Assembly: GCA_018894105.1 (NCBI GenBank)
Contig: CM032128.1
Coordinates: 27,427,299 to 27,491,298, forward strand
From: Jacaranda mimosifolia
Taxonomy: Eukaryota > Streptophyta > Magnoliopsida > Lamiales > Bignoniaceae
Reading direction: 5' to 3'
Length of the DNA stretch: 64,000 bases
Shown here: positions 9,861-47,248 of the stretch, piece after piece
How the letters are laid out: each line of letters starts with the position of its first letter
Position numbering within the stretch: position 1 is the first letter of the stretch
The notes under the pieces: model-generated
What the model saw: the letters and a program-made list of their open reading frames with translations, nothing else
The model's database searches: none
What the model was told of the DNA's origin: nothing
Translations under genes and position numbers: made by a program

Positions 9861-9865
9861 TGGTC

Positions 9866-15561: not shown

Positions 15562-15665
15562 TAAATATTATAAAAAACTATTTAAAAAATAAAATCATTT
15601 AAAAGAAAAGGTTGGCACGTGAGAAGTGAGAAAGAATATAATAATGCAAAAAACAAAAGTCTCCA

Positions 15666-17223
15666 CGGGCTTTCTACCCGTCAGATAGGTGTCGTACCTA
15701 CCTGACGGCTTATAATTGTTGGATTAATATAATAAAATCCAAACCGTTCAATATGTACGAATGGTGAGTAGAGTAAATCACAAATATATCCTGCACAAAA
15801 ATCGATATAATCGCTAGTCAAACTAGTGATTTTTTGGTATTATTCAGCTGTTCACCTTGCTTTTAAATATAATATTTTTTTTATATTATGAGAAACAATT
15901 AAAAAGAAAAAAAGTAATTGCTAGTTTGACTAGCGATTACTTTATTCTTCATTTTAATATAATATTTGTCAATATTATGAGACACAATTAAAAATTAAAT
16001 GTAATTAGTATAGCAAATATTTAATCGCTTGTCAAATTAGCGATTTTTTTGTCCTTCATTTAAATATAATATTTGTTAAGATGAACAAATAAGTAATCGC
16101 TAGTTTGACTAACGATTTCTTTGTCTTATTCATATAAATATAATATTTATTTTTTTGTCCTTCATTTAAATATAATATTTGTTAAGATGAGCAAATAAGT
16201 AATCTCTAGTTTGACTAACGATTTCTTTGTCTTATTCAAATATACGCATTCGTTTAAATATAATATTTTTTAATGTTATGTAACACAAGTAAAAATTAAA
16301 TGTATTTAGTATAATAATAATTAAATAACGAAAGTATAAATTGGCAATTATTTGTAGTTGGAAAGTATATAATAATATCAATTTTTATTATTATGAAACA
16401 CATAAATAAATAAAATTTAATGAATATAATAACATTTAAATAAAAGAAACAAAACCAAGTAATGACAGTCTAATATAGCGACTAGTTTTAGTAAGAAACA
16501 CATATATTTAAATATTTAAGAAAAGAAAATACTCAAGGCTATAAAAATATAAAGTTTAAATATAAATTTTACATTTTATATTTAGAATATGTGATCCAAA
16601 TCGAAATTGAGTACAATGATATTTTATATCATAAATTTTTTTAATAATTGAATTATTGTATAAAATCTTTGTAATATCATTCTCAATATAATTAACTAAG
16701 TAATTGGCTAAAAAGTTATTATTATTTCACTTTTCAGCAAATAAATAATGGCTAGTCGAACTAACAATTTCTTTGTCCTTCATTCAAATATCATATTTGT
16801 TAATATTATGAGACACAATTAAAAATTAAATATAAGTAGGAAAGTCAAATAAGTAATTGCTAGTCAAACTAGCTACTTCTTTGTCATTCACTTAAATATA
16901 ACAAGACACAATTAATAATTAAATAAAAATTAAATGTAATTAGTAAAATGATTAGCAAATAAGTAATCGCTAGTCAAACTAGCAATATAATATTTAACAT
17001 ATATTTCACATATTTTCACATATTACACGTAAAATAATGTCCACTTTAATCGCTACTGTGAGTAGCAACTTTTATATTTCGTTACGTTGAGGGCAAATTT
17101 GTCAATAACTTTATCAAGCGTTGTCAATTTCAAATAATTAATGATATCGAATTTACATTGACATTTTTTTATTGGCTGACTACCGTTAGGTAAGTACGAG
17201 GCTACTTGATGGTAGAAAGCCCC
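15666..17223. mobile_element. palindrome-array TIR element, small copy (Mutator/foldback-like)
   Basis: The left end reads CGGGCTTTCTACCCGTCAG and the right end, reverse complemented, GGGGCTTTCTACCATCAAG. Flanking 9-mers are AAGTCTCCA (15657-15665) and AAATCTCCA (17224-17232), 8 of 9 identical; 9 bp is the usual Mutator-superfamily duplication length. Each end folds on itself: at the left, CCGTCAGATAGGT pairs with ACCTACCTGACGG, and at the right, CTACCGTTAGG pairs with CTTGATGGTAG. The interior holds about ten small palindromes such as TCGCTAGTCAAACTAGCAA and its flipped loop form, spaced about 50-500 bp apart. No ORF has transposase features, so it is non-autonomous. Its right end lies only about 75-100 bp upstream of the SDR pseudogene start. 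Confidence 0.78.
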
Positions 17224-17324
17224 AAATCTCCAACATCTTACGAGCCCACGTCTTGTCAAAAGCTCAAATGAATATAACTAATAGAGTGAAGAATCCCATG
17301 AGAAGAAGAAGAAGAGTGGTGGCA

Positions 17325-17430
17325 ATGAAGACAGTTTGTGTAACAGGAGCATCGGGCTACATTGTTTCTTGGCTTGTCAAATTCTTGCTCCTCCGCGGTT
17401 ACACCGTCAAAGCGTCTGTTCGCGACCCCG
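17325..17430 (+). pseudogene. SDR pseudogene exon 1
   Basis: Encodes 35 residues, [17 protein letters not shown] through KASVRDP, the NADP-binding beta-alpha-beta start of the family, and ends in phase 1 at a GT donor (17431). An in-frame upstream ATG at 17298 adds an Arg-rich stretch (MRRRRRVVA) not expected in the family, so 17325 is the preferred start. This exon has no damage of its own. Confidence 0.85.
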
Positions 17431-18329
17431 GTACTTCACTGATTCCTCCACTCCACTCTATTTTAATTACTTTCTCAGTTATGATTCTTGTTCATGTCCC
17501 AGTTAAAGTTTCTAGATTAATTATTCAGCAAACTGTAAATATTTACCAATTACCAGAACATGATTCCTGGGTTACTGTTGAATTTCATAATAAGCACTTA
17601 TAGTTTCGTGCCTATTTTGGAATTCTGAAAAGAATAAAACAATGAAATCAAAACATCAATAAAACAAAAACTCAATTAATCTATTTTGGAATTTCGAAAA
17701 GAATAATCTCAAGTTTTATCTCTTTTTCTTTGATATCAGATAAAAAAAAAAATTCTTTACAAATTACAACGAGAACTTTTATATGTAGAGATGCCCACTA
17801 ATCAGGCGTAACCACCCACTACTAGATCATGGGCCATTGCAAATCAAGACCATTTTGCCACGTTGGAACCCACGTTTCTTTACTCCGAATTCTACGGCTT
17901 TTCATATCTTTAGCTCAGCTCGGTCATCAACAGTAGGCCAACACATAAAACGTTTCTCAGGCTAGTCAATTTACTTTGAATTAATTGCTTAGTGCAGTGT
18001 TCAGCTCGAACAATTATATCCCTATGTACTTGGATGCGGCTCGGAAAAAGGGTGATGCCGAGCGTCAGCTCGGCAACGGGTAGCTCCCATTTTCAGCTTG
18101 GCATGAGCAACTCCAGGCTGGTATCACATCTCCCCCCAACTAAAAATTAGTTCAAATTATTTTGAACTAAACCAACAGAGGCTGCCTCTACTTGATTCAT
18201 TCCTGGCCTCAATGGTAATTAATCTCTTTGATAGAAACCTATCAGAGCTGAGCATATGAGATGTTCTTACCGAAAATAGGCAGCATATTGAAGGCTTGCG
18301 TTAATAAGAAGTTCATCCCGATTAGAAGA

Positions 18330-18515
18330 TCATTCGAGCTAAATACTTGGACATTCATCCTTTTTATAAGATAGCTCATTCGAGTTGAATGTTCTTGGAC
18401 ATTCGTCCCTTTTGTAAGATAGCTCATCCGAGATGATTGCTCCTAGACATTCGTCCCTTTTGTAAGATAGCTTATCTGAGCGGATTGCATTTGGATATTC
18501 GTCCTTTTTGTAAGA
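18330..18515. repeat. approximately 60-bp tandem repeats
   Basis: Four degenerate units share GGACATTCGTCC followed by TTTTGTAAGATAGCTCA, at about 18350, 18399, 18449 and 18493. They lie in the internal part between the two LTR-like copies. The function is unknown. Confidence 0.75.
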
Positions 18516-19090
18516 TAGTTCGCACGTTTTTCCACACGTGGACTATGCCCCTCACGATCTTTGACACAATTTCCTCTGCTAGAAATTCCATTCTATGCCG
18601 TTTGCACCACTACTTCCTTGATATCTTCTTTTTTTTCTTTTCTTCCTTGAAAATAGAACTAATGTGAGCTCCTGTAGACATCCCGGGTTGACTGCAGATC
18701 TGTGGTTGTTGCTAAAATTTCGGGAGTCATTCATTTCTTTAAATCTAGGAATCACTCTTTTGATGACTCCTTTGCTATGAAAACATCTTCAGATTGTTCA
18801 TGCGTATTATGTGGTTTCCATGAACTTTACTTCTTTAATCCGTTTGCATCCTTATGGTTTTCACGATTTAGTTATCTCACGTCTCAACTCTAATTTCTCA
18901 CAGACAGTGCCAATTGATGCACAATGAAATCAAAACATCAATAAAACAAAAACTCAATTAATCTATTTGGAATTTCGAAAAGAATAATCTCAAGGTTTCT
19001 CTCTTTGTCTTTGATATTAGATAAAAAAAAAAATCCTTTACAAATTACAACGAGAACTTCTATGTGCAGAGATGCCCACTAACTAGGGGG

Positions 19091-19132
19091 TTTCTACCGT
19101 CAGGTACCCTCGTACATTCCTGACGGTAGAAA
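19091..19132. repeat. self-complementary terminal hairpin, left end
   Basis: TTTCTACCGTCAGG (19091-19104) is perfectly complementary to CCTGACGGTAGAAA (19119-19132) around a 14-base loop containing CGTAC. The terminal repeat can therefore fold alone, without the opposite end. Confidence 0.88.
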
Positions 19133-19257
19133 CCAATCAGAAGCCACAATTCAATTTTTGGTACGAGATGTTGACAAGAAGGTAGAGTGAATTTGATCGT
19201 TTTACCCTTGGAATGTGCTGATGAATATTTATGTGAAGTTGCACTACAAATCAACAA

Positions 19258-20580
19258 TATGTCGTTACTGTTATTAGCGATTATTAATTGTAATATTAAA
19301 AAAATACTGTAATATTTAAAAAAAAAAATGAATCGCTACTATTATTAGCGATTATTGTGTAAATTATAATATTAAAAAATGCTACAATTTATTATATTCA
19401 TAAAAACAAAAAAGAATCGGTATTAGGGACTGTTGTGTAGATTTAAAAAAGAATTGCTAATATTATTAGCGACTAAATTTTTTTTTTTTGCAAATTGTAA
19501 TACTAAAAAAAAAATAATTGCTACTATTATTAGTGATTATTGTAAATTGTAATATTTTTAAAAAAAATCTCTACTATTATTAGCATAAAAAAAATGCTAC
19601 TATTATTAGCGCTTATTGTGTAAATTTTAATATTAAAAAAATCATTGGCCATTATATTATTAAAAATAAAAAATAATCGCTACTATGATTAGCGATTATT
19701 GTGTAAATTGTAATATAAAAAAAATGCTACAATAAATTATAATATTCATAAGCTAAAAATAATAACAAATTGTAATATTAAAAAAAAGTAATCATTACTA
19801 TTATTAGCTATGTTTTTAAATTGTAATATTAAAAAAATGCTACAATAAATTTTAATATTCATAAGCTAAAAAAAACAATAAATTGTAATATTAAAAAAAG
19901 TAATTACTATTATTAGTGATTTATTTAAATTGTAATATAAAAAAAAAAGAATCGCTCCTGTTATTAGCAATTATTGTAAATTGTAATAATAAGAAAATAA
20001 TCTCTACTATTTATTATTAGCATAAAAAATGCTACTATTATTAGATTATTGTGTAAATATTAAAAAAAATCGCTACTATGATTAGCGTGTGTAAATTGTA
20101 ATATTTAAAAAAATGCTACTATTAAAAAAGAGTAATTGCTACTAATATTAGCGATTCTTTAAATTGTAATATTAAAAAAAACAAGAAGCGCTACTATTAT
20201 TAGCAATTATTATAAATTATAATATTAAAAAAAATAATCTCTACTATTTATTATTAGCATAAAAAAATGGCGTATATTTTAATATTAAAAAAAATCGCTG
20301 CTATTATTAGCAATTAGTGTATGAAATGTAATGTTAGGAAAAAAAAAGGATCGCTAATATGATTAGCAATTATTGTGTAAATTGTAATATGAAAAAAAAT
20401 ATTTTAATATTCATAAGCTAAAAAAAATAATAAATTGTAATATTAAAAAAATAGAAGCGCTACTATTATAAGCGATTATTGTAAATTGCAATGTTAAAAA
20501 AGAATCGAAAAAAATCGCTACTACTATTAGAGATCATTGTGTAAATTGTAATATAAAAAAATATTGTTTATTATTGACAA
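19258..20580. repeat. palindrome array, left arm block 1
   Basis: About twenty degenerate copies of a unit centred on AATCGCTACTATTATTAGCG followed by ATTATTGTGTAAATTGTAAT and an A-run. The 7-base arms TCGCTAC/TTAGCGA close a short A/T loop. Spacing varies from about 30 to 110 bp. No ORF of interest. Confidence 0.85.
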
Positions 20581-20699
20581 TAAAAACATGACAGTAGTCA
20601 GCCAATAAAAACATGCCACCCAAAATTTTGGTACGAGATGCTGACAATACTTGAGGAATCATTGACAAATTTGCCCCTCATGTAATATAAAAACGTAAA

Positions 20700-22790
20700 A
20701 TGGCCTAAATTTTAAATATAAAGCAATAAAAATTGCTAATTTGAGTAGTGACTAAAGTGAAAAAAATATTTTAAAATAAAAAAAGCCTGAAAATATGCCA
20801 ATCAACAAGATAACTACTAATGTGAATAGCGACTTGAAAAAAGGTAAGACTGTCCAAAAAAAATAAAAAATAAAAAACAAGCCCCTTTGCCTTGAGATTA
20901 GTTGCTATTGTGATTAGTGAATGTGAAATAAATCTTAACAATCAACTGGACTAAAGTGAAAAATTATTTTAAAATGAAGATTAGTTGCTATTGTGATTTG
21001 CAAATTAAAGAGATTAGATTATTTTAAAATGGAGCGACTAAAGTGAAAAATTATTTTAAAATGGAGATTAGATTTTGTGATAAATAAGTAGTGCTTGTAT
21101 CATTTTAAAAAAAATATGAAATATGGAAAATCGCTTATGTGAAGCTAGAAATCGCTACTATGAGAGCAAATAAAGTGAAAAAAAATTAAAATAAATTAAA
21201 AAAATAAGCAAGAAATCACTGCCATGGGTAGCGACTAAAGTGATAAGCAATTGGAAAATTATTTTCAAATGGAGATTTGAAAAATTACTTTAAAATGGAG
21301 AATAGATTTTGTGATAAATAAGTGGTGCTGATATCATTTATGAAATATGTCAATCAACAAGAAATCACTAATGCAAATAGCTACTAAACAAATAATCATA
21401 AATTTTAGCTTTGAAAAAATAAAGCTAGCAATGAGTTGCAATTGTGATTAGCCAATTAAAGAGGAAAATATTTGCAATCCTATGGTTAGCCAATTAAAGA
21501 GGAAAAATATTTGCAACCCTCTTAAAACTAAGATGTTGATGTACCATTTGTTTAAAAAAATTGAAGCAAGGAAAAAATATTTTAAAAAACTAAGTAAGAA
21601 ATCGCTACTTATAGTAGCGACTAAAGGGAAAAATTATTTTAAAATGGAGATTAGATTTGTGATAAATAAGTGGTAAGAAATCGCTACTATGAGTAGCAGA
21701 TTAAAGTGGAAAAAAAATTATAATGGAGGAATCACTACTATGTAGCGACTAAAGTGAAAAAATATTTTAAAAATAAGCAAGAAATCGCTACTTTTAGTCC
21801 AAATCACTATTATCAGTAGCGACTAAAGTGAAAATATATTTTAAAATGGAGATTAGATATTGTTATTTAAAAAAAAAAATGAAATATGTCAATCAACAAG
21901 AAAATCGCTACTAATCGCTATTATAAATAGCTACTAAACGTGGAAAAACAAATTTTACCAATGAGTCGCTATTGTGATCAACAAGTTAAGGAGGGTTGCA
22001 CATTTGTTTAAAAAAATGTGAAGCAAGAAATCGTCAGTGAAAAATATTTTGTAATCGCTACTATAAGTAGCCACTAAAGTGAAAAATTATTTTAAAATAG
22101 AGATTAGATTTTGTGATAAATAAGTGGTGTTGGAATCATTTAAAAAAAAAAAAAGAAGAAAACGCTACTATGAGTAGCGACTAAAATTAATTTAAAATTT
22201 TAGTTGATTTAAAAATTAATTTAAAAAATAACCGAGGAATCGCTACTATGAGTAGCGACTAAAGTGAAAAATTATTTTAAAATGGAGATTGGATTTTGTG
22301 ATAAATAAGTGGTGTCAATATCATTTAATAATAACATGATATATAGAAAATCGCTATCGTGTAGCAAGAAATGCAAATATGAGTAGGCGAAAAAATATTT
22401 TAAAATGGAGATTAGATTTTGTGATAAATAAGTGGAGATTAGATTTTGTGATAAATTATTTAAAAAAATCATTTAAAAAATATATGCAAGAAAACGCTAC
22501 TATGAGTAGCAACTAAAACTAAAGCGACTAAAGTGAAAAAATATTTGAATTAAATAAATAAGCAAGGAATCGCTACTATCAGCAGCACTACAAGTGAAAA
22601 AATAGTTTAAAATGGAGATTAGATTTTGTGATAAATAAGTAGTGCAGGTATCATTTAAAAAAATATGAAATATGGAAAATCGCTTCTGTGGAGCAAGAAA
22701 TCGCTACTATGAGAGCGAATAAAGTGAAAAAAAAAAAGAGCAAGAAATCGCTACTATGAATAGCGAATAAAGTGATACCATATTACATAA
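20700..22790. repeat. palindrome array, left arm block 2
   Basis: Repeated unit built on ATCGCTACTATGAGTAGCGA, followed by CTAAAGTGAAAAATTATTTT and often AAATGGAGATTAGATTTTGT plus GATAAATAAGTGGTG. More than twenty palindromes occur, with unit lengths from about 40 to 150 bp, showing higher-order duplication. 21368-21721 is also found at 46895-47248. Confidence 0.85.
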
Positions 22791-22847
22791 TATAATATAA
22801 TATATATACATATACATACATGGTTTATATATATTATTAAGAATTAA

Positions 22848-23555
22848 GGTATTGCTATCCCAAGTAGCGATACCTTTTTTATTAGAAATTTAATTCTATT
22901 TTTGAATTTTCAAAAATTAACTGTAAAATGTAAAATTATAAAATTAAAAATATAATTTTTTAAAGTTGTACTGAATTCCACACTTTTCAAAAGTTACTTT
23001 AAAACACAACATTTAAATATAAACAAAATATTGTTCAAATAAAAAATATAAAAAAATAAAATATTACTAATGAAGTAAAAAAAAAAAAAAAACCAAAAAA
23101 GGACGCTAATCAAATTGAGGACATACAATTTAAATATAAGCAAAATATTGTTCAAATAAAAAAATATACACAAAATATAATATCACTAATGAAGTAACAA
23201 AAAAAAAAAAAAAACCCAAAAAAGGAAGGTGTCGCTAGTCAAACTCGCAACATCTTCCCACCACTAATGACATTATATGTATAATATATGCCCCTTCCCA
23301 CCACTAATCTGGGTATATGTATAATATATATATATATTATATAACTAAACCGACTCCTAATAGCATTATATATATTCTAAATAATGAATATTGCATTTAT
23401 AAACAATAAATTTTCAATATATACAAAGGTGTCACTACTTCACGTAGCGACACCCTTGTATTTTTCACATAAAAAAGGTGAGATGTTTTACATTTATTAT
23501 TTTTAAATAATATATTTGTATCATAAAGTATCACCACTTGATAGCGATATCTTTG
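22848..23555. repeat. palindromes with GGTRTCGCT...AGCGAYACC stems
   Basis: Longer-stemmed relatives of the arm palindromes. At 22849-22875 AGGTATTGCTA pairs with TAGCGATACCT; at 23427-23452 GGTGTCACTAC pairs with GTAGCGACACC; weaker forms lie at 23228 and 23530. The rest is AT-rich filler. Confidence 0.75.
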
Positions 23556-23960
23556 AATTTTATATTAAATTTGTACTTTAACTTTAATTGATTCCTACCT
23601 CTTTGTATGGATGTGATTTAATTTTACGGTATGTGCGACTCAAACCAAACCGTACAAAGCTCCATTTAAGTAGTGTCAATTTATTTTATTTTATTTTTTT
23701 TAAATGCTACTCATATTTATGTGTCATAAAAACTCGAAAGTTTCTTATGCATTTTTATTTAGATATATAACACAATTTTCCATAACTGACGCACAATTGT
23801 GTCTTGTGTACAATATTTTATTTTGTCATTTTGTTATCTTTTATCTTGACATTGCAGAACACGAGGTGTGCATTAAAATGCAAATATCAACTCAGGTTTG
23901 TCCTGACATTACAGAACACGAGATGTAATAAATCATCTTTGTCATCACCCAGAAATGTAA

Positions 23961-25519
23961 GGGTTTGTTCTCTTATGTTTTGGCCATTTTCTAGAAAAAA
24001 ATTTAGGGGAATGGGTTTTTGGAAGAAAATTTGAAGAATGTGCCTAATGTTTCTTTTTGTTTTGGAGAAATATGGAAAATGATTTGAAAATAAATTGTTT
24101 GTTTCTTTATATTTTGGGAGGAGACAAACTTTACTGTTGATGTTAAATCAGTTGCTTTTTTGTTGGGTTTGTGAGGTAAAAGTGATTTTTTTATGTAATA
24201 TATTATATATGTATGTATATTATAGTTGGATGATGTGTGTGTATATATATGTAATGATTGATATATTGTTGTAATAAAATAATATGTTATTAATTCAATT
24301 GATGCTTTATTTTAAAATATATATTTTTATGAATTTATTAATAAATATTAATTATTTATGAATTTATAATTATGTCTTAAGTAAAAAAATTTGGCTAATA
24401 TCATAATTGTTGATATCAGCTTATATAAAAAAATTTAATTATTGTACATTAATTATAAACTAATTATTATATATTCTTAAAATATAATTATTTAACTATT
24501 TATTATTTACAATTTATGTATAAATAAAACTTAGTTATTTATTTAAATAAAATAATATATATCTATATATATTAGACTTAATAACAATTCATCAAATTAA
24601 AAAAATAAATAATTTTATATTTTATGAAACTAAATCATCTTAAATTATTTATTAAACAAATAAGTGTAATATTCAATTATACGTGAAATATGAAACATAA
24701 TTAATATATACATAATAAGTTATTTAAATAATTAAATAATTTAATTTAATTAATTTAATAAGTTATTTATTTACTTTAACTTAATATTTAATTAATATAT
24801 TATTTAATAAATAAATTACTTAGTGACTATCAAAAAAGAAATTACTTAATTTTTATTAATTTCCTTGATAATTATTTTAATTGTATTAATATTAATTTAT
24901 TAAAATTAATAGATTATTAAATAAATATCACAGTATATTTAATTTTTTATAATAATTTTAAATAAATGTGAATATTAATATTTAATGAAGATTAATTATT
25001 TGAAAAGATTAATTTATTTATTATATCAAATTAAAATTTTTAAAATTATTTATTAAATGAATAAATATAATATTTAATTAATGCATTAAATATTAAATAT
25101 AACTAATGCATTATTTAATTAATAAGTAATTTAATTAATTTAATATGTTATTTAGTAAATAAATTATTTATTAAATTTAATTAATTTTCTCGATGATTAT
25201 TTTAATTAAATTTGTAAACATAAGTTTTATAATTTTTTAAGTAGTAAAATTTCAACATTTTCATATATGTAAATATATGTATATATATATATAAGTAAAA
25301 TGAGATAATGATAAATGAATGAGTAATGTAAAAGATGGAGTGAGAAAATGAAGGAATAGGTGTACTTTTTAGGGTGTAGGGTTTTTTTGGGTGAATTGTG
25401 AGGGATTTTTTGGGTAAAAAATTATAGTATTTTGAGAGAAAGATTGAGGAATGTGCATGCATTTTGAAATTTTTGTGGGGGTTGGAAAAAATTTCCCCAA
25501 AACATAGGAGAACAAGCCC
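23961..25519. mobile_element. PIF/Harbinger-like element, 1.56 kb, non-autonomous
   Basis: The left end is GGGTTTGTTCTCTTATGTTT; the right end, reverse complemented, is GGGCTTGTTCTCCTATGTTT. TAA flanks both sides (23958-23960 and 25520-25522). The interior is extremely AT-rich with long TTAATTAAT-type runs and no transposase or Myb-like ORF. Part of a related copy lies at 48490-48830. It sits inside the 11.1-kb palindrome element. Confidence 0.72.
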
Positions 25520-25789
25520 TAAGTATACTAAACTAACCATTATTTAGGGCAATCATATTTTTGTGTAAGGAGTGGGGTAGGGTTGAATAAATTCTGAGTA
25601 TTCAGACATCAATTCGAAATCACTTAGCTAATATTACAGAAAAGAGGCAAAGGTTCTTAGTGGAAAATTCAAAAAGGACTAAGGGGAATACCTTACATAG
25701 CAACACAATATTTATTTGTGATTCACAAAGAATATCTTCAAAGCAATTGCAGGTGTGCTCTTCACGGCTTGTTTGGATCAAATATTTGT

Positions 25790-26046
25790 TTATTTATTCG
25801 TATGTAGGTTTCATCAAAATTTTAGCCGATTTAGTTCGGGTGGGTTTAGGTTATCGTTTGACCCACTATCAAATTTTGAGTTGTTCATTTAACATGAAAT
25901 TCAACCCAACCCAACCTATTTTCTTTGGGTTCTTATTCTTGTCGACCTTATTGGACCCGGACCCAAAATAAAATCAACGCAAACCCAATTTTTTTGAGTC
26001 GAACTCATGTCAGGTTATCGTGTTGTGTTGGAAATTGTCACCCCTA
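25790..26046. mobile_element. truncated hAT-like MITE (GGGTTGGG type)
   Basis: Carries runs such as AACCCAACCCAACC and GTCGAACTCATGTCAGG, and ends AAATTGTCACCCCTAA. This corresponds to the right end of the better preserved copy at 27038-27995. The matching left end was not found. Confidence 0.5.
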
Positions 26047-26312
26047 ACTTATATGGTAATTTAATTAGGAAAAAAAATCTAAATTAAGTCACAAGTGTTA
26101 CATTTTATACATAAAATAAATTTTGTGACCGGATGTTTTTAAGTTCGGTACAGAAACTAATAAAATATTAAAAAAATTGCATTTATTGTAATTAACATTT
26201 TATTTAACTGAAAAACAAGTTACTCTAACCAATTATGACTCCAAAATATTATTATTATCAGATATAAATACATAACACACACATTTGTAATATGTTGCTG
26301 CTTTTATATTAC

Positions 26313-26360
26313 TAGTGAAAAGGGCACCACGCAAAGCTCAGTGTCGTGCCCGTTTCACTA
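26313..26360. repeat. 48-bp inverted repeat
   Basis: TAGTGAAAAGGGCAC (26313-26327) pairs with GTGCCCGTTTCACTA (26346-26360), 14 of 15 positions, around an 18-base loop. It is the only GC-containing patch in the surrounding AT-rich DNA and may mark the end of another small element. Confidence 0.75.
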
Positions 26361-27037
26361 ATTAAATATATCTATTTATACTATATGTAATCTTTGATCA
26401 TTTATTTTTTAAATTAATTAAATATATCTGTTTATACTATATGTAATCTTTGATAATTTATTTTTTTAAAGAATAATAATTTAATTCAATATTTGATCAA
26501 AGTTTATTTTTAAATGTGTCGATTATATAAAATTCATACTTTTAAAAAAATTATATTGAAACTATGTCTTAAATAATTAAAAGAAAGATAGACTAAATGA
26601 AAGTTTTATTTAATTTGATAATTTTCCAATATAACTTATTTATATAAAAAACAAATATATAGAAAATATAAAAAAGAAATGTTGATAAATTAAGGACAAC
26701 AACATAAATTAAGATCAATAGAAGAGAGTACAAATAAATCACATAGGAAAAAAGTGAAAAATATTACTTAAAAATTAACCCTAAGAAATAACTTAGGAAT
26801 ATATGATTAACCACAGAGTTTTAAACTAGTAGCATGAAAGTAGAAATAGCTATCAATAATGAAGTAATGCTATTAAAATTCTAAAATTTGAAGTAATAAG
26901 TTCAATAGAAGAAGCTATAAAGTAAAAATTGGTAAGCAAAAATATGTAAAGGAACAACTGTCAAGTTTAATAACACATAAATTTAAATAAGTTTGATGTT
27001 AAGTTGCCTTCGTATCCAGTGTTTTGTTTATTTGTTA

Positions 27038-27995
27038 TAGGGGTGGCAATTTTCAATACAACACGAGTTTGACACAAAAAATTTGAATTTGGGTTGACAT
27101 ATTTTGGGTTCGGGTACAACTAGGTCGACACGAATAAAAATCCGAAGAAAATGGGTTGAGTTGGGTTGAATTTTAGGTTACACCAACAACTCAAAATTTG
27201 ATTGTGGGTCAACGGCAACCCGAACCCACCCGAACCAACTCAACCCAATCCGAGTTAAACAAATAAAACTTAAATTTTATAGGAGTAAAAATATAAAATA
27301 ACAAAATAAATCTTCAAAATTTGAACTTTAGCAATTTCAAAATAACTACTTTGACATTTTTTGGTCTTATTTATTTTCCATATAGGATGAATTATTACAA
27401 CTTTAAATTACTTGTAATGGTTATTTTTGTATCCAAGTAGACATGAAAATTGTACTCCAAATGGTTAACAAAACACTACTTTAACTACTTAATTGTTCCA
27501 GAAGTTTTTCTTATTATACAATGCAAGATTTTGTATATATAAATAGATAAAAATTCTTTCTGTTGAAAGGTTACAAATAAATTCAAAAGACTTAAGCAAG
27601 TTTTTATAATAAATTATGTGATAATTTAAAATATTTATTTTACTTATTTGCTTGATGATATATTTTTATTAATTTATGTATTACTTAACTGAATCAATAT
27701 AAAGTTAAAAAATAATGGCATTAATTTTAAAAATTTAAAAGAGATCATTTAATCGACACAAAAGACCCAAAAATTAAAAAATAAAAATACCAAAAAATTA
27801 AAATAAATATTTAAAATAATTATTTTAAAAATTAGGTTGACCTAATATGAATAAGGTTGGGTTAGGGTTGAACACTTTCAGGTTGTCAACAGGTTGGGTT
27901 GGGTTGGGTTGGGTTTGGGTTGAAAAAATTAACGTTATACCCCTATTTTAATCCAACTCGAACCCACCCGACCCACTCAAATTGCCACCCCTTTT
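27038..27995. mobile_element. hAT-like MITE (GGGTTGGG type), 0.96 kb
   Basis: Starts TAGGGGTGGCAATTTTC, and the right end reverse complemented begins AAGGGGTGGCAATTTG or a few bases further out. Flanking TTTGTTAT (27031-) and TTTGTTAA (27996-) agree at 7 of 8 positions, the hAT duplication length. Just inside both ends are runs of AACCC/GGGTT motifs, in opposite orientation. There is no transposase. This element lies within the 11.1-kb palindrome element. Confidence 0.68.
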
Positions 27996-27999
27996 TTGT

Positions 28000-28838
28000 T
28001 AATAGTTTAATTACAAAATTACAAATGGTGAGCCATAAAATTATATGCCCAAAAATAGCAATATAAAAGATAATATATATATTTTTTATTGGGAGCGGTT
28101 GTTAATAATGTCCCCATTAAATAGTCTTTGCTTTGCTTGCAATCTTATATTCGGATGATCTAAGTAGACACATCTCAGCAAATATATGATACAACAATTC
28201 CTAATAAATAATTTAACTATTAATTTCTACTACAATAAGATTATTTTATAATTATATTTATAAATAATTTCTTTCAAATATTAGATAATATAATTAGATT
28301 AATTTAAAAGAACATTTCAATTTAATTTAATAATTAAATTATCTGCACATCATTTTCTTACAGTCCTATACCAATTATTAAGAATACATATATACATACA
28401 TCAATCATCCATCTATATATATATATGTTATAAAATCAATTTCTCTTTACAATTCTAGTAAAAAAAATGACTTAACATTTACAATAAAAGTTATCTCCCA
28501 TAAAACATTCCAAACAAACAATTTCTTTTACAACCTATTTTTCACATTTTCTCAAAACAAAAACAAATACTTGGCACATTCCCTAAACTAATTCTAAAAA
28601 CCTGTTCTGGCAAACAAACGCCAAAAATATAACCAAACAAAGCCTTCAATTTTACATAAAAATATCTCTTCAATTTGCAGAATAATCAAATTTTACATAA
28701 AAATATCTAATCAAATTTTATGATAAGTTTTTATTAATTAATTACTATTATAGTTATTACGATAAACTATTATACTAATTACGATAGATTTTTATTGTGT
28801 TTAATTACATTAAAATATAATATATTTAGTTGAAGAGG
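28000..28838. other. AT-rich filler with a Tourist-like end
   Basis: No coding region. AACCAAACAAAGCCTT at about 28641-28656 is the reverse complement of the Tourist-like end seen at 4134, so a decayed Harbinger-like MITE probably lies around 28480-28656. Its other end is not clear. Confidence 0.45.
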
Positions 28839-28839
28839 C

Positions 28840-30110
28840 GAATAACCCAAAGAAATCGCTACTTTGACTAGTGATTACTTGTAAAAATTTTTTTAATATT
28901 ATTATATACATGCGTTTCCTACTACAAATAATTGCCATTTTACTTTCTTTTTTCTTTTAATTAAATATTATTATATTCACTAAATTATATTAATTAAATT
29001 ATGAATTATATATACTAGTCGCCATGTCAAATGGCAACTAGTTGGCCTTCGTTAATTAATTCCTATTATACTAATTACGATAAATTTTTATTGTCTGCCC
29101 TTACGGTTATTAACATTATACTACTTACATTTTATTTTTAATTGAGTTTCATAATATTAAGAAATATTATATTTATTTGAGGGTGTAATAAATTGAAAAG
29201 AAATATTAAGAAATTATATATTAAGATCCCTTTAAGTAGTCGCCAAATGAAACAACGATTACTTTATGTATTACTTGTAGTCACCAAATGGAATGGCGAT
29301 ACATAATTTTTTTGACTTTAAGTAGTGGCCAAATGGAATGGCGATTACTTTTATGTATTTTTTTTATTGTAAATAGTCGCCAAATGGAATGGCGATTACT
29401 TTATATATTTTGTTAAAAGGAAATGATAGATTTTTTATTTTAAGGAGTGGATTTTTTTATTTTAAGTAGTCGCCCAATGGAATGGCGATTACTTTAGTAG
29501 ACGTCATATTTATCGTGCCAAATGAAATAGCAATTACTTGTGAAGTTGCCAAATGAAATACCAATTACTTTTTGCCATGTGGAAAAGCGATTACTTTTGT
29601 TCGCCCTTACAGTTTTAATATTATACTACTTACATTTTATTTTTAATTGAGTTTCATAATATTAAGAAATATTATATTTATTTGAGGGTGTATATCTTAA
29701 TAAGACAAATAAATTGCTAGTTTAACTAGCTATTATTTATTTGCTCCTGGGTCCAAATGGTGATTAGTTGCTTTTCATTAGTTAATTAATATTATACAAA
29801 TTACATTTTGTTTTTAAGGGCTTAGGGTAATTATATTTATTTGAATGCATACAAATAAATCCTAGTTTGACTTCCTATTACTTATTTGCTCCGGGAGTAG
29901 TGTACTAGTGGCTCTTTGAAATGACGATTACTTGGTACAAATTATATTTTATTTTTAATTGTGTTTAATAATATTAAGAAATATTATATTTATGTGAGGG
30001 GAGGGTTAATCGGACAAAGAAATCGCTAGTCAGCGATTCTAACTAGCGAGACAAAGCAATCACTAGTATGACTAGCGATTCTTATTTTTTGCCTTTGGGG
30101 ATATATATGT
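28840..30110. repeat. palindrome array, right arm
   Basis: About sixteen palindromes. The main type is AGTCGCCAAATGGAATGGCG followed by ATTACTTT; towards the outer end the type is AATCGCTAGTATGACTAGCG. In reverse complement the main type reads AATCGCC...GGCGACTA, the same polarity as block 2 of the left arm, so the two arms are arranged as inverted repeats in design though not in exact sequence. A stretch of about 80 bp (ACTTACATTTTATTTTTAAT onward) occurs at both 29122 and 29629. Confidence 0.8.
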
Positions 30111-31318
30111 ATTTTACTATTCTTTACTATTCGTACCTATTAAATGATGGATATTTTATTAAACTAATCTAACAATCGAAAATGATTAGGTAGGTACGAC
30201 ACCTACCTGGCCATAGAAACGCCCCACTAACTAGGCATAACCACCTACTACTAGATCATGGGCCATTTAATTGTTACAAATTACAATCCTTGCAAATCAA
30301 GACCATTTTGCCACGTTGGAACCCACGTTTCTTTACTCCGAATTCTACGGCTTTCCATATCTTTAGCTCAGCTCGGTCATCAGCAGCAACCCGACACAAA
30401 ACGTTTCTCAGGCTAGTCAATTTACTTGGAATTAATTGCTTAGTGCAGTGTTCAGCTTAAACAATTATATCCTTATGTACTTGGACGCGGCTCGGAAAAA
30501 GGGTGCTGCCGAGCTGTAGCTCCCATTTTCAGCTTGGCATGAGCAACTCCAGGCTGGTGTCACATCTTCCCCCCTAAAAATTAGTTCAAAGTATTTTGAA
30601 CTAAACCAACAGAGGCTGCCTGTACTTGATTCATTCCTGGCCTCAATGGTAATTACTCTCTTTGATGGAAACCTATCCGAGCTGAGCATATGAGATAGTG
30701 CCCATAAATGAAAAGGGACTATCCAATTAGCTCTTTGGACTAGATATTACAAGAAACTGGCGATGTTTTCATTTCTAAGTTTTTGATATGATGGGGAAAC
30801 AACTTTGGATGAGATGGGCTTGTTTGAAAATTGAAACTCCCGCATAAAACAGCGACCACCTTCTGTAGTTTTGGTCGGCATTCAGATTTTGTGGTACTTA
30901 CAAACATTAGTATCTTGCAAAATCAATATGCTTCTAATATTGAACCGGGATCAATTAGGACACAAGTATTGGTTCCAGCTCCTGTTTGGCGTCAAGTAAT
31001 ACCTATGAATAGTAAGTGATTTCCAAGAAAGTATAGAAAAGTGTCTGAATGCAACTAATTCTTGAACTTTAGACCGAAGAATTTGGTTTTACTGAATTTT
31101 GATATGTGCATTGAAATTTATCATATTTTATGCTAATCTTAATAATAAAGTAGAAGGCAGAATTCAGATGAGAAACAATAATGGAATATTCTTGGGCAAA
31201 TATCAAAATGAATGTCAATGAATTCCCAGTTTTAGTTCGATTCCATTTGGTTCCCACTCTCAAAATTTTACTTCTCGGCATTCCCATCAGTTTATGAGAA
31301 CTCTTCAATTATCTGCAG

Positions 31319-31492
31319 ATGATCCAAAGAAAACGCAGCACTTACTGGCACTTGATGGAGCTAAGGAGAGCTCTACTTAAATTGTTCAAAGCAGATCTAC
31401 TAGAGGAAGGATCCTTTGATAATATAGTTGATGGCTGTGATGGTGTTTTTCATACTGCATCTCCTTTTCACAATCCAGCCGATGATCCGCAG
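31319..31492 (+). pseudogene. SDR pseudogene exon 2, frameshifted
   Basis: Starts [17 protein letters not shown] in the frame set by exon 1, then reaches a stop (TAA at about 31378) after GAGAGCTCTACT. The family sequence resumes one frame over with [14 protein letters not shown] and [15 protein letters not shown], ending at a GT donor (31493). A small insertion or deletion near 31367-31380 explains this. Confidence 0.85.
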
Positions 31493-31624
31493 GTTTGTGC
31501 CACGTTTCTTTCTTCTTTTATACAAGGTGTCTTCTAATATCAGGCTTCATGTATTGATAGCAGGAAAAAGGTTCAAAAAGGATGCATAGCTCTTGAAATT
31601 TATAACTTAAAATGTGGATTGTAC

Positions 31625-32244
31625 CAGGGGTGTTCGCGGTTCGGTTTGGATCGGTTTTGGGACAAAAGCCAACCGATTCAAACTATATAATGTATATTGG
31701 ATCGGTTGGACTTTTATTGTAAATCCGATCCAATCCAATCCATTTTAAATCGGTTTGGATTGGATCGGTTAATCGATTTTTCAATTTAAATATTTAATTG
31801 AAATATTTGACAAATTACTATTGATAAGTAAACTAATTTAATCAATCAATTTGTAAATTTTATTTAGCTATCATATCACACTAATATTGTGGAATTAAGT
31901 TAAATTATGTAAGAACACACAACTATAAAGTTATAAGTCCACAATAATTATCCATATATATTTGATTTTTGAAAGTGAAAAAAATCCTAAGTTTAGTTTA
32001 TTTTAATTTGTTTGTGTATTTTACAATTAAGATATATATTTTTTATATTATTAGTATATAAATTTTGGTTCGGTTTGGATTGGATCGGTTTTTTAGATTA
32101 AAACCGAAAACCAATCCAATCCAATCGGTTTTAAGAAAACAAATCCAATTCAATCCAAAAAAGTTCGATTTTGATCGATTTTCGGTTTTTTGGATCGATT
32201 CGTCGGTTTTTTTTTTTTGATTGAATTGGATTTGAACACCCCTA
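31625..32244. mobile_element. hAT-like MITE (GGATCGGTTT type), 620 bp
   Basis: Starts CAGGGGTGTTCG and ends GAACACCCCTA, an 11-bp inverted end with one mismatch at the tip. A perfect 8-bp duplication GATTGTAC lies at 31617-31624 and 32245-32252. Both subterminal regions are filled with CGGTTTGGATTGGATCGG-type sequence in opposite orientation, and the centre is AT-rich. It sits in intron 2 of the SDR pseudogene. Ends and 8-bp duplication are those of the hAT superfamily. Confidence 0.9.
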
Positions 32245-36333: not shown

Positions 36334-37116
36334 ATGCCCCATGTTCTGATGTCTGTACAATAAGGAGAGATATGGAATATCCTACCATGGTGTGCAATGC
36401 GTTGTCTCACAAAAAATAGCTCAAAAGTTTTTTCTTTCTTTCTTCCTTTTTTTTTTTTTTTTTTAAATACAAATACTGCAGTGTCTAGGCAGTGATTTGG
36501 CATGGATGCTATTAGTTTATTAATAATATGTACCATTAATAAAACATTTTCGAGTAATGTACCTAAACTTTTAAGTCTAAAGCATCGAGAAATAAGTCAT
36601 ATGGCTTATACATGAATGTAGAATCTCATATGCTTTTTAGTTGATTGTTTGATGCTCTTGTTTCATTTTTTTTAAATTGACAATGAATAGCATTTTATTT
36701 TTAAAAAATAATAATTTTATTTCAAAAAATAATTCTATTTAAACTAATGAATTGATAGACTGATTTTCAAATTTTATTTTTAAATATATAAAATATTCAA
36801 ATCTTTTACTCTTTCAACTATTATGCTAAATGTGTCAATTTAATTAGATACAAATGTTTATTGTTGGACAAATGTAATATTGTTTTAAAATTATTTTTTG
36901 GAATTGTATTTTTATTGGTAACTAAGAACTAATTAAGGGTTTATTGTCACTTTCATTTCTAATATTAAAATTTCCTCCATTTATATAGATTATATTAATT
37001 AAATTTATCATGTTTCTCTACTTTTTGTCTAGACTCGTATTTCCAATTGACCCCAATCCCCAAACCCGCAGTTCTTCAAATTTTCCCTCTACTCTAAAGC
37101 ATGCCCTTAGAGACCC
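36334..37116. other. region downstream of the SDR pseudogene
   Basis: AT-rich 3' flank of the pseudogene with a pyrimidine/T-run at 36430-36464. No gene or repeat boundary recognised before the gypsy element starts at 37117. Confidence 0.5.
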
Positions 37117-38061
37117 TGTAAACACAAATTTTTTTGTCTACAATAAATAAGATTACAAGATAATAAAAATCTATACAAATAAAATGAAATTCAAACTTAT
37201 CAATTGTGAATTCAATTTCTAATCTAATCATTTGATTCTTCTCTTTCAAATATAATCTTTAATTTAATGTGCTTCATGAAGAACACATTCATCATTGTGG
37301 AACTCCTTAAATTTGATTTGTAACACCAATTTGAGGGTTTCACACCTCATTCTCGAATCAAACGCCAAAATATATAAGCTCCGTGAAGAATGCCTTGAAT
37401 GTTGTGGATCTCTTTGAATTTAGTTTGAATAAAATAATGCCAATTCGATGGCTCTGCACCTTAATCTCGAATCAAATGCCAAAATATATGAGCTATGCGA
37501 AAAATGCCTTAAACGTCGTAGAGCTCCTTGAATATTTAAATAAAATAACGTCAATTCGAGGGCTCCGCACCTTAATCTCGAATCAAATGCTAAAATATAA
37601 TGAGCTCCGTGAAGAATGCCTTAAACACCATGGATCTCCTTGAATTTGATTGAGATAATTGTTGGACTCCTTCAAAGCTTCTCTCACTTGCTGAAATTTG
37701 TGTTCTGTGTCTTGAATGAGCCTTAATCACCCTCTTTATATAGATGTTTGATGGGAGACTTCCAAGTTGATTTGAACTTTTTTGATAATTATCTCTTTGA
37801 TAAGATAATATCAAATATCAAGAGATAGTATCAAATATCTTTGATTTGATTGGTCCATAAGCATAGACACTTTATCTTTGATACTTATCAATATTTGATT
37901 TGAGCATAAAATAAATACTAGAATATTAATTAAAATTAACTATTTATCTTTTGAAATTAAATTTAATAAATTCCAAAATAAATAGAAAATTTTGAATTAA
38001 TAATTAGCATATTATTTTATATGTGTGACTCTCCAATTAGCCAAAAATTGATATGTCTACA
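37117..38061 (-). repeat. 3' LTR of the gag-only gypsy element
   Basis: Plus-strand ends are TGTAAACAC and GTCTACA, the inverted TG...CA ends. Contains several copies of the 105-bp unit (AGCTCCGTGAAGAA... in this orientation, near 37376, 37490 and 37600). Matches the 5' LTR along its length. Confidence 0.88.
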
Positions 38062-38329
38062 AATGCTTCCACTTCAAGACTTGCGAAAGATGTGCCAATC
38101 ATACATGAAAGAGGCAAGGCTTGAAGTATTTGAGAAGTTTTCTTCTCCTCCCCCCGCCCCCCCACCCCCAATTTTTTTTTATCCATACATTTACAACAAG
38201 AACATCTTCCAAGCACTCCTCGAGTTCTGGTGCCAAATAAAAGGGTTAAGTCATAACATAATTCAAAGCAAATATCCTTTCGAAGGGAGTGCCATACACA
38301 GTTTATACTCATACGGGCTAGGAATAACA

Positions 38330-38985
38330 TGCAGTTTAGGCTCGTGCGTGAAGGAGCATATTTAATTTGAATAGACATTTTATACTCGTGTCAAGGAGTC
38401 CATTTGAATTTGATTGATAATTTATACTCATGTTAAGGAGCTTACTTGAGTTTGACTTAATAGACAGTTTACACTCTTATCAAGGAGTACATGGAGAGAC
38501 TTTGAATATTTAGATAGTTTATGCTCGTCTTTAGGAGCATTATTGACAGTTTAAGCTCTTATCAAGGATCACATGTGGATACTTTAATTTAAAGAGTTTT
38601 AGATAGTTTATCCTCGTATTTAGGAGCATTATTGACAGTTTAGACTCTTATCAATGAGCGTTTGTGATTTGAAGACTTGAACTTTGAACTTGAAGACTTG
38701 AAGATTTGAGTTTTTGATTTGGAGATTTAAAAATTTGAGCATTAGAATTGGAAACTTAGAGACTTGAGCCTGTGACTTGAAGACTTGGAGACTTGAGTCT
38801 TAAACTTGAAAACTTGAGTCGTGTATTTGGAGACTTGAAGACTTGAGTCGTGTATTTGAGACTTGGAAACTTGAAAATTCAAATTTAGATACTAGGGGAC
38901 TTGAGAATTTTAGATAATTTATACTCTTATTTAGGAGTATTATTGACAGTTTAGGCTCATATCGAGAAACATTTATAATTTGAAG
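38330..38985 (-). repeat. degenerate tandem repeats in the 3' non-coding part of the gag-only element
   Basis: Two repeat types occur. One is TTGACAGTTTA(G/T)(A/G)CTCTTATCAAGGAG, repeated about every 50-100 bp at 38330-38660 and again near 38920. The other is GACTTGAAGACTTGAGTC-type repeats at 38660-38900. The first type also occurs once or twice after pol of the long element (near 57830-57900), so it has been amplified here. Confidence 0.7.
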
Positions 38986-39040
38986 GTGAAAATTAATTGC
39001 CCCCAACATCTTCATCATCATCGGCATCACTTGAGTCTCT

Positions 39041-40195: not shown

Positions 40196-40239
40196 AAGAG
40201 ATGAGAGGTAGAAATCGTCCCACCGGGCATGACAAAATT

Positions 40240-41226
40240 TGTAAGTACAACTTTCTTCGTCTGCAATAAATAAAATTAGAAGATAAAAAGAAATCATACA
40301 AATAAAATAAAATTAAAATCTATCAAATGTGGATTTAGTTTCTAATATAATCATCTGATTCTTCCCTTCCAAATATGATCTTTAACTTAATATGTCTCGC
40401 AAAGAACGTATTTAACGTCGTGGATCGCCTCAAATTTGATTTGTAACACCAATTTGAGGGCTTCGCACCTCATTCTCGAATCAAATGCCAAAATATATAA
40501 GCTCCGTGAAGAACGCCTTCAATGTCGTGGATCTCCTTGAATTTAATTTGAATAAAATAATGCCAATTTGAGGGCTCCGCACCTTAATCTCGAATCAAAT
40601 GCCAAAATATATGAGCTCCGCAAAGAATGCCTTGAACGTCGTGGATCTCTTTGAATTTAATTTAAATAAAATAATGTCAATTCGAGGACTCCACACCTTA
40701 ATCTCAAATCAAGCACCAAAATATAATGAGCTCCGCGAAGAATGCCTTAAACACCATAGATCTCCTTAAATTTGATTGAGAGAATTGTAGACTCCTTCAA
40801 AGCTTCTCTTACTTGCTGGAATTTGTGTTATGTGTCTTGAATGAGCCTTAATCACCCCCTTTATATAGATGTTTGATGGGAGACTTCTAGATTGATTTGA
40901 ACTTTTTTTATGATTATCTCTTTGATAAGATAATATTAAATATCAAGTGATAATATCAAGAATTAAGAGATAATATCAAATATCAAGAGATAGTATCAAA
41001 TATCTTTGATTTAATTGGTCTATAAGCATAGACATTTTATCTTTGATATTTATCAATATTTGATTTGAGCATAAAATAAATACTAGAGGATTAATTAAAA
41101 TTGACTATTTATCTTTGAAATTAAATTTAATAAATTCCAAAAATAAATAGAAAATTTTGAATTAATAATTAGAAAATTATTTTATACTTGTCACTCTCCA
41201 ATTGGCAAAAAATTGATATATCTACA
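40240..41226 (-). repeat. 5' LTR of the gag-only gypsy element
   Basis: Plus-strand ends are TGTAAGTAC and ATCTACA. It is about 40 bp longer than the 3' LTR, partly because of an extra ATCAAGTGATAATATC-type duplication near 40940-40990. CTTTATATAG near 40859-40868 is the TATA-like site seen from the opposite strand. Confidence 0.88.
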
Positions 41227-41231
41227 GACTC

Positions 41232-45949: not shown

Positions 45950-46897
45950 GATAAACTTAGAAAGAAGCTTGAGTGGTTGGAAAGCAAAAAATCTCTCACA
46001 AACAAGTCGTCTTACTCTTTTTAAATTTGTTGCATAGTCTTTACCTGTACACCATATGTCAACTTTCATTCTTCCTATTTCTTTATATGACAAAATGGAT
46101 ACTATGATGAGGAATTTTTGGTGGGGTCATGATTCAAGTAAAAGAAATCTTACGTTGAAATGTTGGGATGATTGTTGTACCCCGAAATCTTATGGCAGAA
46201 TTGGGCTTCGTAAAATGTTTGATCTCAATAGAGCCTTGATTTCTAAATTGGCTTGGAAACTTGCAACAGAGAACAAATCACTCTGGTATGAAATCCTAAA
46301 ATCTAAATACTTTAAGAACTCTAACTTTCTTGATTTTGACAACTTGATACAGGGAACTTCGTGGATTTCGCAGGACATCAACAGATGTGAAGAAATCATT
46401 CGACTTGGGGCTTGTTTCACTGTCTCTTCAAACTCAAATATTTGTACTTGGTTTGATCCATGGATACTTTCTCTTGATGGATTCACCCCTTCACCACCTA
46501 GTCATTTTTCAAATTCTCATTTTCATTTCAACCTCGTCAAAAACCTATTGAACCCTGATCAATGTACATGGAACATGAATGCCCTCTAATCTCTCTTCAC
46601 TCAAGCTACCATCCAAAGCATTCTCAAAATTTGAATCTCTTCCTCCTTGGAACCTAAATCACTTTTTTGGGCCCCCAATTCGTCGGGGATATTCTCAATT
46701 AAAAGTGAATACCTTTCTATCATCCATTCAAAAACAAGTCATCCAAGCACACATGACATGAAGCTTTTCAAGAAAATTTGGAGTCCCAAAATTCATAAGA
46801 GACATAAAATTTTTATGTGGAAAGTGCTGAATGGTTCACTCCTAACAAGAGCTAGTTTGATGAGATTTGTCCAACTTGAGGATAATGCCTGCCCCTA
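45950..46897 (+). pseudogene. LINE ORF2 C-terminus: RT thumb/connection and zf-RVT
   Basis: Contains LERSLSGWKAKNLS, MRNFWWGHDSSKRNL, SYGRIGLRKMFDLNRALISK and KSLWYEILKSKYF, then GIFSIKSEYLSII, KRHKIFMWKVLNGSL and LMRFVQLEDNACP. These are the conserved downstream segments of plant L1 RT, with a zf-RVT domain cut in mid-motif at 46897. One frameshift lies near 46585-46650. Confidence 0.83.
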
Positions 46898-47248
46898 ATG
46901 CAAATAGCTACTAAACAAATAATCATAAATTTTAGCTTTGAAAAAATAAAGCTAGCAATGAGTTGCTATTGTGATTAGCCAATTAAAGAGGAAAAATATT
47001 TGCAATCCTATGGTTAGCCAATTAAAGAGGAAAAATATTTGCAACCCTCTTAAAACTAAGATGTTGATGTACCATTTGTTTAAAAAATTGAAGCAAGGAA
47101 AAAATATTTTAAAAAACTAAGTAAGAAATCGCTACTTATAGTAGCGACTAAAGGGAAAAATTATTTTAAAATGGAGATTAGATTTGTGATAAATAAGTGG
47201 TAAGAAATCGCTACTATGAGTGGCAGATTAAAGTGGAAAAAAAATTAT
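46895..47248 (+). repeat. 354-bp copy of the palindrome array (matches 21368-21721)
   Basis: From CTAATGCAAATAGCTACTAA to AAAGTGGAAAAAAAATTAT it follows 21368-21721 with only about four differences (two substitutions and two single-base indels seen by eye). It has neither end of the palindrome element and begins abruptly inside the LINE zf-RVT sequence. After 47248 the two sites diverge completely. Confidence 0.88.

Follow-up and report, generated by a model that had tools for sequence, protein, structure and literature searches.

The window analysed here, a stretch of 64,000 nucleotides of Jacaranda mimosifolia (GenBank assembly GCA_018894105.1, contig CM032128.1, positions 27,427,299 to 27,491,298 of the forward strand), carries an 11.1-kb mobile element which, judged from its sequence, belongs to the Mutator-like elements (MULEs), in a family that is both large and diverse, and has an unusual build. 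Both arms of the element contain arrays of a 23-bp palindromic motif, ARTCGCYA-N7-TRGCGAYT, and these arrays, dozens of intact or damaged copies in all, probably represent docking sites for a dimer of a DNA-binding protein encoded by its larger relatives. The analysis covers one genome, the 707-Mb assembly of this plant; L-numbers, E30 and E32 denote loci of family copies or candidate elements in the same assembly.

The motif is defined by sequence, spacing and order. The genome contains 332 exact sites and none for the reversed control, while the 19-bp form of the motif is found at 708 sites as compared to 104 for the reversed control. TCGC followed by its complement at a gap of 3-11 bp occurs 96 times in 21 elements, where 0.7 would be expected, and TCGC ranks first among all 4-mers by excess over shuffled sequences. 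Spacing is nearly invariant, with 88 occurrences of TCGC-N11-GCGA at a gap of 11 bp and at most three at any other gap from 2 to 30, and the opposite order, GCGA followed by TCGC, never exceeds four at any gap. When sites were scored over twelve fixed positions (TCGCYA-N7-TRGCGA) with a threshold of at least 10/12, the 11.1-kb element yielded 39 sites and five shuffles of it 0.0; the 21 loci carry 3-39 sites each (shuffle averages 0-0.6), and their flanks, about 60 kb in total, carry one. The first-pass annotation of this DNA, made from its letters alone, had reported dozens of short hairpins; by these counts the short palindromes are far above chance. Of the four kinds of motif it had named three occur exactly, and the fourth, TCGCTAGTCAAACTAGCGA, is present only in imperfect form in the 11.1-kb element. 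The change of orientation it had described between the arms is also real, AATCGC..GCGACT on the left becoming AGTCGC..GCGATT on the right.

No site reaching 10/12 lies between 23451 and 28855 of the 11.1-kb element, whereas in L023 and L027, which are among the short copies, sites run across most of the element. In 27 loci there are 253 sites scoring at least 11/12, representing 234 distinct 27-mers. Symmetry extends beyond the positions used for selection, with R at -1 in 93%, A at -2 in 73%, Y at +20 in 85% and T at +21 in 75%. Sites are strongly clustered; of the 50 sites listed for contig C1, 36 have a neighbouring site at a distance of no more than 5 kb, where 0.6 would be expected.

Constraint on the motif was estimated from seventeen pairs of related copies, using as background the sequence within 400 bp and outside motifs; each pair was compared both ways and some elements enter several pairs, so that the comparisons are not independent. 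Fixed positions other than CpG were changed in 31/939 cases as against 2997/43970 in the background, a ratio of 0.49 (0.33-0.67, bootstrap over pairs), and motif CpG in 70/243 as against 175/431 outside, a ratio of 0.70 (0.52-0.91). As sites were chosen by their score in one copy, the bias works against seeing slower change. Changes of CpG led to CA or TG in 56/70 cases in the motif and in 130/175 outside, as expected of methylated CpG. The centre of the motif changes at a rate of 0.073 and its flanks at 0.073 and 0.084. The first-pass annotation had made its proposal depend on stems that do not vary as freely as the loops; in the outer half-sites change is indeed slower than in the sequence around them.

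The two half-sites decay independently at their core. At positions 2/18 the combinations C-G, C-A, T-G and T-A were counted 158, 69, 51 and 19 times (odds 0.85, P 0.66), and at positions 3/17 G-C, G-T, A-C and A-T 201, 41, 38 and 8 times (odds 1.03, P 1.0). Losses in one core are therefore not compensated in the other half at either of these position pairs, which favours a dimeric protein-binding site. Alternatively, the palindromes might act as hairpins of single-stranded DNA or RNA, either in the manner of foldback elements or by giving rise to small RNA, a possibility which we regard as improbable. It draws on the palindromic form itself, on the left terminal repeat, which is a strong hairpin (the ends of other family copies are self-hairpins too, as judged by eye), and on an excess of symmetric pairs over column-shuffle expectation among the 234 sequences: 180 vs 162 at 5/15, 102 vs 73 at 7/13, 151 vs 143 at 8/12, 84 vs 63 at 9/11, 111 vs 95 at -1/20 and 176 vs 137 at -2/21. 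This excess may be due to relatedness of the copies, and a weak preference for self-complementarity could also be its cause. On the other side, the length of the loop is constant, the centre changes at the rate of the flanks, mispairs are frequent (C-A in 31/234 at 5/15, A-C in 40/234 at -1/20), core mutations are uncompensated and the arms are not long inverted copies; no Rfam family was found at threshold in 15600-31500, which is only weakly informative on new hairpins. Hairpins were thus rejected as the main explanation on fixed spacing, centre rate and uncompensated cores, leaving the column-shuffle excess unexplained. The earlier view of conserved stems with changing loops was not confirmed, as loop length is fixed, half-site damage goes uncompensated and only 7/39 sites of the 11.1-kb element have TCGC and GCGA intact on both sides; the supposed hairpin subunits are better read as degenerate dimeric binding sites.

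A likeness to foldback elements had also been proposed. Self-comparison of twelve elements and comparison of the arms, up to 2.5 kb each, of eleven resolved elements detected no long inverted arms of high identity, and terminal pairing extends over about 20-54 bp in most of the eleven. Under standard scoring no inverted match between arms is longer than one of 147 columns at 69% identity, in L027 and away from the ends. With permissive scoring inverted pieces of 58-64% identity appear, in most elements near the level of shuffled sequence, in L026 and slightly in L027 above it: L027 aligns over nearly its full length to its own reverse complement at 58% (inter-arm score 78 bits, shuffle maximum 71), the best piece of L026 reaches 50 bits at 61% (shuffles 31) and that of the 11.1-kb element 48 bits at 60% (shuffle maximum 47). 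Self-comparison showed inverted pieces inside E30, E32, L013 and the 11.1-kb element, where bases 4868-5288 pair with 9163-9567 at 65%. What the arms have in common is the motif and not long inverted sequence, and classification as a foldback element was rejected.

The element is delimited by direct reading, which confirmed the exact boundaries, the perfect 9-bp target-site duplication and the related inverted ends of the first-pass annotation. The ends are of the GGGG type, left GGGGGTTTCTA and right GGGCGTTTCTA (reverse complement), and match in 14 of the 18 outermost bases. Flank identity spans 13 bp, CCCACTAACTAGG, because adjoining bases match by chance; other copies fix the length of the duplication at 9 bp, and the flanking CACTAACTA represents the target sequence. 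CACTA termini and a 3-bp duplication are absent, and an assignment to the CACTA elements was rejected.

The pattern of the left end has 22 exact places in the genome, including the element's own, and none for the reversed control. One of the other places, on C15, is L035. Among the twenty remaining copies the right end was found within 9 kb in eight, and was not found within that distance in twelve. The 9-bp duplication is perfect in five of the eight (L015, L018, L020, L026, L027); in the other three its two copies differ at one or two bases (L013, L017, L023). Of three further candidate pairs of opposite ends, E32 and L034 have a perfect 9-bp duplication and E30 has none. Other copies with the same ends and 9-bp duplications, which the first-pass annotation had suggested looking for, are thus present. 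A looser pattern (18 bp, up to three mismatches) gave 328+337 places against 199+193 for the control, so these matches prove little by themselves. The outer 29 bp of the right end have no second place in the assembly at up to three mismatches. For pairing and for proximity to genes 100 listed end places were used, and the counts of relatives are lower bounds.

Target-site duplications of MULEs measure 8-11 bp, usually 9, and miniature inverted-repeat transposable elements (MITEs) are conventionally under about 1 kb. The resolved copies of this family are heterogeneous and range from 1.56 to 11.1 kb; as they are neither short nor homogeneous, a MITE was rejected. The 9/9 duplication, the terminal inverted repeats (TIRs) shared between copies and the MULE transposase of relatives all place the element with the MULEs, for which passages of one report give duplications of 7-12 bp (PMC9168764).

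The transposase was identified in L035, L036 and L037, which carry the family's left end; their right ends were looked for and not found. All three contain FAR1 and MULE (PF10551) pieces over the Pfam cut-offs, and SWIM is present in L036 and L037 and was not seen in L035. In L036 and L037, which are 91% identical across 9.7 kb, the Jittery-type set of FAR1, MULE and SWIM lies on separate open reading frame (ORF) pieces and is assigned by domain content. L036 has in addition a Ulp1 piece over the cut-off, and for the L037 piece at the same position no family was found. The first-pass annotation had held that the element was not a normal Mutator; this is right as to its build, but FAR1, MULE and SWIM pieces are encoded by relatives that share its ends and arms, so that the element is nevertheless Mutator-like. 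The MULE transposase which the annotation had expected in a longer copy does belong to the family. When the 100 listed end places were compared with 150 scored MULE domains, eight places, seven of them distinct, had such a domain no more than 20 kb away (mean 0.97 and maximum 6 after shifting). L038, one of the eight, was set aside as a carrier of the FAR1-MULE gene, as the gene adjoins an end and lies outside the element.

A second gene accompanies the transposase in one clade. An ORF in L018, L019 and L022 is Myb/SANT-like, by domain scan in L019 and L022 and by similarity in L018, where it contains a stop; the L018 element has ends on both sides and a duplication that is perfect. The genome survey scored 132 out of 595 candidates for the transposase and 150 out of 348 for the Myb/SANT gene, so that counts are lower bounds; of the 80 Myb/SANT matches 27 were classed, after seeing the data, as close loci and 44 as distant, and nine fragments of counted loci were dropped, and the limit of the transposase clade, 64% identity to the L036 transposase, was likewise chosen after seeing the data. 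Out of 125 listed loci matching this transposase 18 reach at least 64%, and a Myb/SANT-like locus of the close group lies no more than 50 kb away in 16 of them, as against 0/107 of the more distant loci; shifting gave a mean of 0.14 and a maximum of 3 in 5000. The two genes are divergent in 16/16 cases and 1.6-49 kb apart. One case is borderline, C3:35191575 (58%, classed as distant), which lies about 31 kb from the 54% transposase locus C3:35222912 in divergent orientation and, if counted, makes the latter figure 1/107; the short fragment C13:9313979 (57%, also classed as distant) lies 19 kb from a close locus. A listed end is found within 25 kb of 6/18 clade loci vs 1/107 others. Between subfamilies the ratios of nonsynonymous to synonymous substitution (dN/dS) are below 1, with 0.13-0.27 for the transposase of L035 against L036 or L037, and 0.27 and 0.45 for the Myb/SANT-like ORF of L022 against L018 or L019, with 0.80 and 0.77 in two short upstream pieces of that comparison (14 and 37 codons); between the closest copies they are higher, 0.62-0.79 and 1.06. 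On these ratios, both genes were functional in the past and are decaying in the present copies.

According to the docking reading, the motif would be bound by the Myb/SANT-like protein, the leading candidate, or else by the transposase through its FAR1 domain, and the bound arrays would bring the two ends together for transposition, shield the element from methylation, or both, as is reported of TNPA in CACTA elements and of VANC in VANDAL elements. The 11.1-kb element itself, which has no ORF of at least 126 amino acids from stop to stop and in which no transposase ORF was found, would be moved in trans by the proteins of its relatives. More tentatively, we propose that the family could constitute a distinct lineage of giant two-gene MULEs, in which a homodimer of the element-encoded Myb/SANT-like protein would bind the fixed 23-bp CpG-bearing palindrome in both arms, and in which the arrays would be a platform for synapsis and anti-silencing exploited by relatives that lack a transposase.

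Apart from the pairing excess given above, several observations speak against this interpretation. We infer the link between protein and motif, the motif being tied to neither candidate protein. The Myb/SANT scores, 20.5 and 15.7 bits, are under the Pfam cut-off of 23.6; the model of the ORF shows three helices and is otherwise poor (mean pLDDT 51.5), a fold search with it gave no significant match, and a protein database search with the ORF gave no match either. Two of the 18 listed clade loci, including L036, have no Myb/SANT-like gene within 50 kb. The gene content is pieced together from separate copies, none of which was read with both genes and both ends. Only L036 among the 18 listed transposase loci is free of stops, and many Myb/SANT-like copies have stops too, for which reason the system may be dormant. 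Some pairs of copies depart from the overall rates: window-L009, the closest pair available for the 11.1-kb element, shows 4/46 non-CpG changes in the motif vs 84/1415 in the surroundings and 10/12 CpG changes vs 5/10, L018-L019 shows 2/12 vs 37/694 at non-CpG positions, and L021-L037 is also contrary on CpG.

The window-L009 pair would suit arrays that are passive, functionless debris of tandem repeats spread by slippage and conversion, as would the tandem repeats present in parts of the arms (periods of about 26 to 118 bp) and the decay of copies chiefly at CpG. We consider this explanation unlikely, as motif and spacing are identical in arms and subfamilies which are otherwise only partly alike, and as over the seventeen pairs change at the fixed positions is only about half as fast as in the background. 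That the motif is tied to no element protein would also fit binding by a host factor, repressor or activator. The light-signalling proteins FAR1 and FHY3, which according to passages of two papers derive from MULE transposases (PMC6000157, PMC13306707), bind CACGCGC in the description given by the former (PMC6000157), with only the CGC core in common. The 332 exact sites vs 0 and the clustering of sites would better suit a site specific to the element than a common host site, and a host factor is regarded as improbable.

The 11.1-kb element is a composite, as judged by comparison with its relatives. Bases 1-1118 of its left arm are 83% identical to L009, the parts at about 6-130 and 886-1298 are 80-82% identical to the transposase-bearing L036 and L037, and other parts 68-82%. 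Within the same arm a second end is buried whose bases, 1501-1693 of the element, match L014 and L016 from base 33; it belongs to another subfamily, which makes the left arm composite. The right arm resembles the right arms of L017, L020 and L023.

Positions in the window of the 11.1-kb element, its parts and related sequences.
Feature	Position	Strand	Details and basis
11.1-kb element, MULE family	19086..30224	+	11,139 bp; ends and target-site duplication
Left copy of target-site duplication, 9 bp, CACTAACTA	19077..19085	.	direct reading
Right copy of target-site duplication, 9 bp, CACTAACTA	30225..30233	.	direct reading
Left terminal repeat, near-perfect hairpin (TIR and inverted TIR copy)	19086..19134	+	other copies built likewise
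Right terminal region of the 11.1-kb element	30160..30224	-	direct reading
Left array, 29 sites of at least 10/12	19262..23450	.	motif scoring
Right array, 10 sites of at least 10/12	28856..30078	.	motif scoring
Buried second end, remnant of a terminal region, other subfamily (L014, L016, L017, L020)	20586..20778	+	match to L014 and L016
Interior segment in common with candidate E30 (C6:27869238-27881385), 87%	25827..27780	.	sequence comparison
Second complete family member, 1.56 kb, duplication AAGTCTCCA/AAATCTCCA (8/9), own motif array	15666..17223	.	sequence comparison
98.9% copy of 21368-21721 (left arm), without ends, 355 bp	46895..47248	+	sequence comparison

The element appears to sit in the first intron of a reductase-like gene, whose apparent first exon (ATG at 17325) gives NmrA and Epimerase matches under the Pfam cut-offs; this placement is put forward with caution since the later exon-like stretch, at about 31373-31492, matches weakly (E 0.1). 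The second exon-like stretch, 31313-31500, is not readable in one frame, and the gene may be broken. The uninterrupted copy of the target reported near 17797 exists and reads CACTAATCA; it lies in a diverged tandem-duplicate paralogue (17639-17801 and 18921-19082 are 94% identical, 17837-18262 and 30290-30696 91%) and is therefore not the exact pre-insertion site. The smaller family member of the window ends about 100 bp upstream of the ATG of the reductase-like gene. The 355-bp copy of the left arm has the appearance of a templated insertion or a local copy of recent date.

Other repeats were seen in the window. The region 31626-32157 is 83-86% identical to the L021, L024 and L028 loci (twice in L028) and is a repeat or a shared fragment, 11972-12803 matches parts of L022, L012 and L035 at 73-78%, and 37112-41229, 9039-9865 and 62713-63558, which lie outside the 11.1-kb element, are repeats of one family in direct and inverted orientation (75-93%). 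An ORF in L011 (L011:2016-2747) has a Transposase_28 match over the cut-off and possibly belongs to another mobile element, nested or carried; the right end of L011 was not located.

In the titles and some passages of the open-licence literature, no earlier account was found of the motif, nor of MULEs that carry a Myb/SANT-like gene. The transposase has the FAR1 domain, MULE core and SWIM finger of the Jittery group of plant MULEs (FAR1-type), as given in parts of PMC6446971 and PMC2528002. The plant sub-group of Jittery is described in passages of the former with one ORF, 8-bp or unstated duplications and TIRs of 39-292 bp or none (PMC6446971), whereas the present elements have 9-bp duplications, terminal repeats of about 20-54 bp, arms with palindromic motifs and, at 16/18 listed loci, a divergent Myb/SANT-like gene. 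Genes beyond the transposase are reported in excerpts on KI-MULE and other Ulp1-bearing MULEs (PMC2528002), comparable to the Ulp1 piece of L036, and on Abermu (PMC9168764), which has an additional ORF in opposite orientation; Abermu is there closest to MuDR and its opposite ORF is of unknown function, while here the gene is Myb/SANT-like and linked to one FAR1-type clade. The buried second ends of the 11.1-kb element and of L026 recall MULEs with multiple TIRs, as presented in part of PMC3310237, except that in the 11.1-kb element the buried end comes from a different subfamily than the outer one. Muta1 of Aedes aegypti, a MULE termed 'type-2 foldback', shares 8-9-bp duplications, a palindromic terminal motif and subterminal repeats according to passages of PMC5225508; its 12-bp tandem repeats lie within a TIR of 145 bp, whereas the palindromes described here extend over kilobases outside any long TIR.

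With a 23-bp site and a candidate binder available, one can test directly in what way large MULEs recognise arms extending over kilobases, and whether the elements are switched off when the two CpG of the site are methylated. The closest parallels are CACTA and VANDAL elements. Subterminal repeats of the CACTA elements Spm/En are recognised by the element-encoded TNPA, and Spm/En and soybean Tgmt* have subterminal motifs including inverted pairs which can be drawn as stem-loops, as stated in sections of PMC2613891; the present family differs from them in its GGGG-type ends, its 9-bp instead of 3-bp duplication, another motif and the invariant spacing of the inverted pair. VANDAL elements of Arabidopsis are MULEs in which a short motif has accumulated in non-coding regions and is bound by the element-encoded VANC, the VANC21 motif YAGTATTAY forming arrays of one orientation and lacking CpG in the passages concerned (PMC5735166). 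Here the motif is an inverted dimer with two CpG, palindromic and not of one orientation, and the comparison of the two systems covers motif layout. VANC on VANDAL arrays, as portrayed in parts of PMC5735166 and PMC10398659, and TNPA on the CACTA repeats (PMC2613891) are the closest working models. If the docking reading is true, a lineage of FAR1-type MULEs would use an element-coded binder together with a private array of motifs, as CACTA and VANDAL elements do, though its protein would be another one and its site stricter.

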